Shown here: positions 16,362 through 54,050 of the stretch, piece after piece
Position numbering within the stretch: position 1 is the stretch's first letter
Layout of the letters: the number at the start of each line of letters is the position of its first letter
Assembly: GCA_022822865.1 (NCBI GenBank)
Contig: JAJDYJ010000019.1
Coordinates: 1 to 64,000, forward strand
Length of the DNA: 64,000 nucleotides
Reading direction: 5' to 3'
From: Pseudomonadales bacterium
Lineage (GTDB): Bacteria; Pseudomonadota; Gammaproteobacteria; Pseudomonadales; Pseudohongiellaceae
Notes under the pieces: model-generated
What the model was told of the DNA's origin: nothing
The model's database searches: none
What the model saw: only the letters and a program-made list of their open reading frames with translations
Translations under genes and position numbers: made by a program

Positions 16362-17567
16362 ATGCAAACCCTGGTCAACAAGCGCATTCTGCTGGGCATT
16401 ACCGGTGGAATCGCCGCGTACAAGTGCGCCGAATTGTCCCGTTCGTTAACGCGGGCCGGGGCCGAGGTGCGCGTGGTCATGACCCGCGCGGCGCGGGAAT
16501 TCGTCACGCCGCTGACGATGCAGGCCCTGACGGGAAACCGCGTACTGACGGATCTGCTCGATTTCGAAGCCGAGGCGGCCATGGGTCATATCGAACTCGC
16601 GCGCTGGGCCGATCTTGTGCTCGTGGCGCCGGCGAGCGCGGATTTCCTCGCCCGCACCGCCCATGGCCGCGCCGACGATCTGCTTTCCACCTTGATTCTG
16701 GCGACTTCCGCTCCGATCGCCATCGCGCCGGCGATGAACCAGGGCATGTGGTCCGATCCGGGCACGCAGCGGAATCTGGACGAAGTCCGCAGCCGCGGTT
16801 ATCACGTGTTCGGGCCCGCGGAAGGCGATCAGGCCTGTGGCGACGTTGGACCGGGGCGCATGGTCGAACTAGACGATTTGCTCGCTTCCTGCGCGGAACT
16901 GTTCACCGGCGAGCCCCTGGCCGGAAGGCATCTGCTCATAACCGGCGGACCGACCCGGGAAGCGATCGATCCGGTACGCTTCCTGAGCAATCACAGCTCG
17001 GGAAAAATGGCCTATGCCCTGGCTGCCGAAGCCGTGGCCGCCGGCGCCCGCGTGACCCTGGTCAGCGGCCCCGTGGCCTTGCCCACGCCGGATCGCGTAA
17101 CCCGGATCGACGTCACCAGCGCCGAAGACATGCTGGCGGCGACCATGGAGCGCATCGCCGACGCCGACGCGTTCATCGGCGTGGCGGCGGTGGCCGACTA
17201 CCGCCCGGCGAACCGCAAGGGCGGGAAAATAAAGAAAGAAGAAGCGAGCATGAATATCGAACTCGTGCGCAATCCGGACATCATCGGCGAGGTCGCACGC
17301 CTGAATCCGCGGCCGCTGGTGGTCGGCTTCGCGGCGGAAACCGAAGACGTGGCCGTGAACGGCCGGGAAAAGCTCGAGCGCAAGGGGCTCGACCTGCTGT
17401 TCGCCAACAACGCCACGGAAACCTTCAGCAGCGATGAAGTGGCCGCAACCGCCATCAGCGCGGAAGGCGAGGTCGAAATCCCCCGCGCCCGCAAGGAAGC
17501 CGTGGCGAGAAAAATGCTCGAAATGATCGCCGAACGCTTGCCGGCGGGTGAGACCCGATCGGCATAG
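16362..17567 (+). CDS. coaBC: Bifunctional CoaBC
   Basis: CoaBC joins cysteine to 4-phosphopantothenate (CoaB) and decarboxylates the product (CoaC) in CoA synthesis. The 401-residue protein has the CoaC flavin motif GITGGIAAYK, PAMNQGMW and the catalytic-Cys segment ACGDVGPGRM, followed by CoaB motifs ITGGPTREAIDPVR, LSNHSSGKMAYALA and KGGKIKKEE. The start is the ATG at 16362. The stop codon falls inside the first stem-loop of a repeat element (17559-17675). dut, which usually follows, is absent. Confidence 0.96.
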   Translation: MQTLVNKRILLGITGGIAAYKCAELSRSLTRAGAEVRVVMTRAAREFVTPLTMQALTGNRVLTDLLDFEAEAAMGHIELARWADLVLVAPASADFLARTAHGRADDLLSTLILATSAPIAIAPAMNQGMWSDPGTQRNLDEVRSRGYHVFGPAEGDQACGDVGPGRMVELDDLLASCAELFTGEPLAGRHLLITGGPTREAIDPVRFLSNHSSGKMAYALAAEAVAAGARVTLVSGPVALPTPDRVTRIDVTSAEDMLAATMERIADADAFIGVAAVADYRPANRKGGKIKKEEASMNIELVRNPDIIGEVARLNPRPLVVGFAAETEDVAVNGREKLERKGLDLLFANNATETFSSDEVAATAISAEGEVEIPRARKEAVARKMLEMIAERLPAGETRSA

Positions 17568-17675
17568 CCGACAAGAAGCGTAGCTTCTTGAGGGTCGAAC
17601 GGCTCGACAGGATGTCGAGACTGGGGGTAATTGAAGTCGAAGAACTCGCGCCATGGATGGCATGTATGATGCCAA
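17559..17675 (+). repeat. Dispersed hairpin element, copy C (partial)
   Basis: A run of hairpins lies between coaBC and algC: TCGGC-ATA-GCCGA, CAAGAAGC-GTA-GCTTCTTG, CTCGACA-GGA-TGTCGAG and GCCA-TGGA-TGGC. The same order, with different but still complementary stems, occurs in the core of the copy at 24711-24948. Conserved words between the stems are TGAGGGTCGAACG and CTGGGGGT. It lacks the long outer arms of the other two copies. If transcribed it is the coaBC 3-prime end. Confidence 0.8.
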
Positions 17676-24687: not shown

Positions 24688-24710
24688 CAATCCTGATATG
24701 CACAATGTGA

Positions 24711-24948
24711 GTCGCCGTCGGGTGGCAGAGGGTTCAGCGGGCGTGCGAGACATGGGTGAGGTCCGGTCGGCGCAGCCGACAAAAAGCAAAAGCTTTTTGA
24801 GGGCCGAACGACTTGCCATGGATGGCAAGGCTGGGGGTTAGCGAAGCCACCAATGTCGCGCCAGGGATGGCATGCACAAACCAATCGAAGGCGGCCAACC
24901 CAGACGTATTTACAGCGTCCGCTGAACCCTCCGCCACCCGACGGCGAC
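24711..24948. repeat. Dispersed hairpin element, copy A (complete)
   Basis: Two 33-base outer arms (24711-24743 and 24916-24948) pair with one mismatch and one G-T wobble around a 172-base core. The core carries GTCGGC-GCA-GCCGAC, CAAAAAGC-AAAA-GCTTTTTG, CTTGCCA-TGGA-TGGCAAG and GCCA-GGGA-TGGC. Compared with copy B the arms differ at six positions, each compensated on the opposite arm. The AAAAGCTTTTTG hairpin might also terminate gmk transcription. The element ends 15 bases from the DUF4143 ATPase stop. Confidence 0.9.
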
Positions 24949-53937: not shown

Positions 53938-54050
53938 GTCGCCGCTGGCTGGCAAGGGGTTTAGCGGGCGTGCGAGACAGGATGTCGAGCCCGAAGCCTA
54001 CATGGATGTATTTACGGCGTCCGCTAAACCCCTTGCCAGCCAGCGGCGAC
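53938..54050. repeat. Dispersed hairpin element, copy B (short loop)
   Basis: Outer arms of 33 bases (53938-53970 and 54018-54050) pair at 32 positions plus one G-T wobble around a 47-base loop. The loop carries GACA-GGA-TGTC (53976-53986) and TACA-TGGA-TGTA (53999-54010). It lies between the P450 gene and the binding-protein gene, in the middle of an apparent operon, and could act as terminator, mRNA stabiliser or processing site. Confidence 0.9.

Follow-up and report, generated by a model that had tools for sequence, protein, structure and literature searches.

The Yersinia palindromic sequence, YPAL, was reportedly described by De Gregorio et al. in 2006. The sequence of this repeat, under the names RU-2 and YPAL, is printed in Delihas 2007 (PMC2759123). 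YPAL is mobile, leaves target duplications of 3-26 bp near dyad symmetry, and is expressed together with upstream genes, whose mRNA stability it may affect (PMC2229807). The second system of relevance here is Csr regulation. The SELEX consensus of CsrA is RUACARGGAUGU, the loops of CsrB hairpins contain CAGGA(U/A/C)G repeats, the target of RsmE is an ANGGAN hexaloop, and two sites separated by 10-63 nt are bridged by a CsrA dimer (PMC7652899). No link between YPAL and CsrA was found in the literature searched.

Here we describe a family of hairpin repeats from a Pseudomonadales bacterium of the Pseudohongiellaceae (assembly GCA_022822865.1), starting from positions 1 to 64,000 of contig JAJDYJ010000019.1, a stretch of DNA referred to below as the window. 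The previously unrecognised part appears to be the constant GGA loops of a YPAL-class repeat; the family itself has already been named.

Anatomy of the elements in the window

Two copies, at 24711-24948 and 53938-54050, carry the near-perfect 33-bp arms described in the initial annotation, at exactly the positions claimed there. All features below are given for the forward strand. In the first copy, the long form, the 5' arm (24711-24743) pairs with the 3' arm (24916-24948) except for two non-Watson-Crick positions, 17 (A.C) and 31 (G.T), and its middle, about 14 bp, is hypervariable. In the second copy, the short form, the arms at 53938-53970 and 54018-54050 depart from pairing only by a G.T at position 31. 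The two copies differ at arm positions 8, 9, 12, 18, 19 and 25 only and the opposite arm compensates every one of these changes, just as annotated. No further inverted pair of at least 30 bp (at most 2 mismatches, at most 260 nt apart) is present in the window, and 20 shuffles of the window yielded none at the same thresholds. The folding z-scores of the two hairpins are -8.5 and -9.2; the short form, approximately 137 bp including its tails, has a fold of -84 kcal/mol (z -9.2).

The short form consists of a left end sequence, an arm of approximately 33 bp, an apex of approximately 58 nt, the second arm and a right end sequence. The end consensus sequences are GCACAATGTGA (left) and GGATCGAAGCCAC; the left one, an unpaired tail that lies at 24700-24710 next to the long form, is kept at this end in most copies. 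The apex holds two small hairpins, H1 and H2, and the word TTYACRGCGTCC. H1 (GCGA-GAC-AGGAT-GTC-GAGC, 53972-53990) displays the CsrB-type repeat CAGGAUG as its loop, and below GAC-AGGAT-GTC it continues with a G.A/A.G step and then GC/GC or GU/AC pairs. H2 (TAC-ATGGAT-GTA, 53999-54010; family pattern TAC-ANGGAY-GTA) places its GGA 24 nt beyond the H1 GGA, and is followed by a conserved right apical word, TTTACGGCGTCC (54011-54022), which is common to YPAL. The conserved words GGGCGTGCGAGACA...GTATTTACRGCGTCC had been annotated as unpaired, yet they are partly structured, enclosing the small hairpins GAC-AGGAT-GTC and TAC-ATGGAT-GTA, both of which covary family-wide. The covariation claimed for the core stems did hold, with CTTGCCATGGATGGCAAG and CTCGACAGGATGTCGAG in the window copies and CTCGCCATGGATGGCGAG in other copies.

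In the long form, a core of approximately 130 nt is inserted in the apex and breaks the loops of H1 and H2. This core insert A (24754-24882), supported by an alignment of 45 distinct cores, is a three-way junction with two GGA hairpins, and supplies its own hairpin pair: C1 (CTTGCC-ATGGAT-GGCAAG, 24812-24829) and C2 (GCC-AGGGAT-GGC, 24860-24871), with CsrA-type ANGGAN hexaloops at 24818-24823 and 24863-24868. The same core also stands free, without arms, at 17546-17665, where the hairpins read CTCGAC-AGGAT-GTCGAG (17603-17619) and GCC-ATGGAT-GGC (17650-17661). The 24711 copy and the 17546 copy share a 45-nt spacing of the two core GGAs. The element sites in the window lie between a guanylate kinase gene and a convergent AAA/DUF4143 gene, between P450 and solute-binding protein genes, and, for the free-standing core, between coaBC-like and phosphomannomutase genes.

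Two further variations of this plan were observed. In several copies (L042, L035 and the one at 53938, whose interior is reversed relative to its end sequences) the two ends have traded places around the apex, an arrangement that a flip of the interior between the inverted arms would produce. A second insert, B (CAAGCGTTTATGAAGCGCAGCTTCATGCGCAGCCGGAACGACGCCAAGC...GGCTGGACCG), is found at the apex position of core insert A in Pseudohongiella-like and other Pseudomonadales metagenome-assembled genomes (L239, L240, L249, L254, L255); it turns H2 into CCTACAGGGGTGTAGG, which removes the GGA, and no GGA hairpin is obvious within it.

Relation to YPAL and other repeat families

The initial annotation gave no named family. 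The apex is, however, homologous to that of YPAL/RU-2, and the architecture is the same. Over H2 and the right word, the 53938 element and YPAL are identical at 27 of 27 consecutive bases, and the alignment of the apex (H1 GGA hairpin, AGCCTACATGGATGTATTTACGGCGTC) scores 40 over 56 nt. The H1 loop of YPAL is AAGGAT, with the same 24-nt spacing of the GGAs. Both repeats are about 150-170 bp long (YPAL approximately 168 bp), have long internal inverted arms forming one long hairpin, and are multicopy, intergenic and variable between species. Unlike in YPAL, which is known from Yersinia and Erwinia, the arms and end sequences found here are lineage-specific, the matches span approximately 57 genera of the class, and long forms exist with inserted cores that bear extra GGA hairpins.

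Similarities with other families are more general. REP/REPIN-RAYT elements are also short, palindromic, intergenic, highly multicopy and close to gene 3' ends, but the stems here are much longer and near-perfect. Membership in REPIN/RAYT was rejected because the genome, which is 96% complete, lacks a RAYT gene (Y1_Tnp, PF01797). NEMIS/Correia and ERIC, likened here by description, are miniature hairpin repeats with a proposed role in RNA stability, whereas the window has no Rfam match at either gathering or relaxed thresholds.

Copy number and genomic placement

The word GCGGGCGTGYGAG has 103 exact matches genome-wide, versus 0 for the reversed control, and approximately 100 element copies are present in the 3.2-Mb genome. 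For comparison, all elements were computationally oriented by their apex, and genes were called with a codon-usage script written for this analysis. Based on these calls, the elements are mostly intergenic (5 of 133 lie inside predicted genes) and are found closer to gene 3' ends than to 5' ends (median distances 22 nt vs 95 nt). Relative to the genes around them they are oriented either way: in 67 of 118 cases the left-hand gene has the sense of the GGA strand. No strand or half-chromosome bias was visible in a complete chromosome (17 vs 16). Since orientation is unfixed and the interior is inverted at one orthologous site, read-through in one fixed direction is not under selection, a point against the CsrA reading given below.

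Many contigs of the genome start or end in an element. Mirror-image flanks, seen on some copies at contig ends (L044, L051, L058), are in all likelihood fold-back assembly artefacts. A further repeat that is abundant (ATTCTGCGACT..GCGCAGAATGACG) is found in intergenic sites of the same kinds (right flank of L010, flanks of L317-L326), in some cases exactly where a relative is missing the hairpin.

Distribution and covariation across genera

A covariance model, R1, was built from 75 distinct short forms and used for scanning, as the initial annotation had proposed, and covariation was confirmed across genera. At E<=1e-3, R1 matches 64 of 369 gammaproteobacterial genomes and 57 of 272 genera, about a fifth of those sampled. 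In a phylum-wide sample of 399 genomes, all 27 matching genomes were Gammaproteobacteria, with no match outside the class; the number of genomes from other classes among the 399 is not given. R1 matches the short form in the window at 53949-54039 with 109.8 bits. Within its own genus, the presence of the motif is patchy (6 of 37 genomes, including the source genome). A search of plasmid and phage collections with a 56-nt query gave no match.

Comparison of orthologous sites revealed variation in presence and form. One site carries a long form here (L004) and a short form in a relative (L265). The element is absent at the 53938 site in the genome G018, at a second site the short version looks like an apex-deleted remnant, and at a third the interior is inverted. 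Among ten ortholog comparisons, no clean empty site was available from which target duplications could be read. Together with the cross-genus covariation, the presence/absence at orthologous sites upholds the initial interpretation of a maintained structure, either RNA or a folded single-stranded DNA such as a transposable palindrome.

Across the 75 short forms, 98.3% of the alignment cells are paired and 20 of the 25 pairs have changes on both sides, giving a covariation score of 0.633, compared with 0.160 for shuffled and 0.07-0.12 for slid alignments. The middle of the arm is hypervariable between copies, and almost always complementary within one copy. In the outer arms, G.U accounts for approximately 9 of approximately 1,270 cells and half-changed pairs are almost absent, a pattern suggesting that, at the DNA level, one arm serves as the template for the other. 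Because these near-absences fit such copying, the arm covariation alone is no proof of selection on RNA; the apical hairpins with their invariant loops are better evidence for it. On the GGA strand, G.U exceeds A.C in the arms by 56:13, a ratio partly biased by the model or by shared ancestry, and the excess is weak where neither can act (15:8 beyond the modelled arm and 28:17 for the variable region of the own lineage). We give this strand-specific test, although significant overall, a low weight, because its strongest part is possibly biased.

Invariant GGA loops

What the initial annotation overlooked is the invariant part of the element, the GGA loops of CsrA/RsmA type. Retrieval of the 75 elements used only the right-apex motif, a query that lacks GGA. 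An A(N)GGAN loop is found in H1 in 70 of the 75, on a covarying stem (GGC/GCC, GAC/GTC, CGC/GGC), and an ANGGAN loop in H2 in 74 of the 75 (stems TAC/GTA, CAC/GTG, TCC/GGA). The two GGAs are separated by 24 nt in 70 elements and by 23 nt in 5. Nearly all of the 45 distinct cores have ANGGAN loops in both C1 and C2, with C1 stems as different as TTGCC/GGCAA, TCGCC/GGCGA and TCGAC/GTCGA. The loop A(N)GGAN is constant, with only its N positions varying, while the arms and stems change freely.

The same picture is seen in other gammaproteobacterial genera. Although neither arms nor stems show any sequence relationship between lineages, each of the 74 aligned matches contains one or more A(N)GGAN hairpins; by a strict definition 62 contain two, with the GGAs 23 nt apart in 54 and 24 nt apart in 8. 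In this class set, where the model R1 favours this consensus, 133 of 133 NNGGAN hexaloops begin with A and both N positions vary. Because of that preference, the class-wide loop counts support the result from the own lineage but are not independent of it.

In folding, H2 is only moderately stable, with a median closing-pair probability of 0.37 in relatives and 0.22 in the class set, which weighs against the CsrA reading given below. In the window (54004-54022) and in the family, GGAYGU can alternatively pair with GCGUCC, which buries the GGA of H2 and excludes this hairpin; in the own lineage, this alternative pairing is possibly a switch. The same GGAYGU/GCGUCC hairpin, as given by RNAalifold, was also considered as a cause of the second GGA other than CsrA, and was rejected: in half of the class set GCGTCC is missing and the GGA stays.

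Candidate CsrA/RsmA sites

The loops have the form known from CsrA/RsmA targets, ANGGAN or CAGGANG closed by a short stem, and H2 with its flank (CUACAGGGAUGUA) departs from the CsrA SELEX site at the first base only. The spacing of the predicted sites, 23-24 nt between H1 and H2 and 45 nt between C1 and C2 in the window copies, falls within the 10-63 nt that a dimer bridges. We therefore infer from these sequences that the apical loops may bind CsrA. The elements resemble CsrB, CsrC and RsmX/Y/Z in carrying CAGGA(U/A/C)G or ANGGAN hairpin loops, several per molecule and at a spacing that fits the dimer. They differ from these RNAs in that there is no dedicated sRNA gene, but approximately 100 dispersed intergenic copies with typically two sites each.

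The source genome encodes a single, intact csrA. Among genomes at least 90% complete, csrA was found in 53 of 54 with elements versus 227 of 260 without (p=0.015), a test of little power because csrA is near-universal in the class. One genome of the class sample (G252; 98% complete) has 8 element matches and no csrA match was seen in it, which reflects either an assembly gap or a real exception.

Possible functions and alternative explanations

We consider it probable, judging by loop sequence and structure, that the repeat is a mobile palindrome of the YPAL class and that its RNA provides a dispersed putative CsrA/RsmA binding site, acting as a sponge or in local mRNA control. The transcript would fold into a stem of approximately 33 bp that displays two putative CsrA/RsmA hairpins (A(N)GGAN, GGAs 23-24 nt apart), with long forms presenting the hairpin pair of core insert A instead. 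When flanking genes drive the transcription of a copy, a single CsrA dimer could bridge the two loops. The many dispersed copies might jointly titrate CsrA as a distributed sponge, and/or each copy might locally alter the stability or translation of its carrier mRNA; cutting of the long stem by RNase III could release the apex. The element itself would spread through a DNA mechanism, and the fact that the two arms of a copy are nearly identical points to copying between arms during replication.

The main rival to the CsrA reading is that the loops are recognised as single-stranded DNA by a transposase. The repeat would then be a purely DNA-level mobile palindrome, REPIN- or MITE-like, with the folded strand as transposase substrate and the GGA loops as recognition bases. 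Dispersed intergenic copies, unfixed orientation, presence/absence between species, nearly always perfect arms with very few half-changed pairs, and the reported mobility of YPAL with target duplications (PMC2229807) would all fit. Nevertheless, we regard this as rather unlikely, as it needs a coincidence to explain a loop that is fixed at A and GGA, free at the N positions of CsrA sites, and recurring in the cores, and the source genome has no Y1_Tnp (RAYT) gene. The CsrA reading is preferred because the loop positions that are free and those that are fixed agree exactly with the CsrA consensus, a pattern found again in the unrelated context of the core.

Two other scenarios leave more to be explained. 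The proximity of the copies to gene 3' ends would suit an RNA-stability element without CsrA, whose stem in the 3' region protects mRNA from RNases or exposes it to them while the apex is conserved otherwise; such roles were proposed for NEMIS, ERIC and YPAL (PMC2229807). This is improbable, however, given that nearly half of the copies are antisense and that the loop bases are kept while the stems change across genera, which such a role leaves unexplained. Far less probable still is the insertion of a small apex element into a pre-existing host palindrome, with the variable arms as target sequence. Even though dyad symmetry reportedly lies within or next to YPAL targets (PMC2229807), one "short" orthologous site resembles an apex-deleted remnant, and the host palindrome was rejected as insertion target since arms without apex are essentially absent (0 in the source genome, 1 in one relative).

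Significance

The present reading would account for the conserved part of the YPAL-type repeat and would extend a Yersinia/Erwinia repeat to about a fifth of the sampled gammaproteobacterial genera. It would also join YPAL-type repeats and Csr regulation, two fields without mutual citation in the literature searched. On a practical level, the covariance model can be used for annotating many unlabelled repeats. More tentatively, the spread of the repeat may install hundreds of CsrA/RsmA sites, rewiring or buffering the Csr regulon as a distributed sponge, with YPAL doing likewise in Yersinia. Should CsrA bind the repeats, its target pool would grow or shrink with repeat copy number, which would be a new and directly testable route by which mobile DNA could adjust a global regulator.
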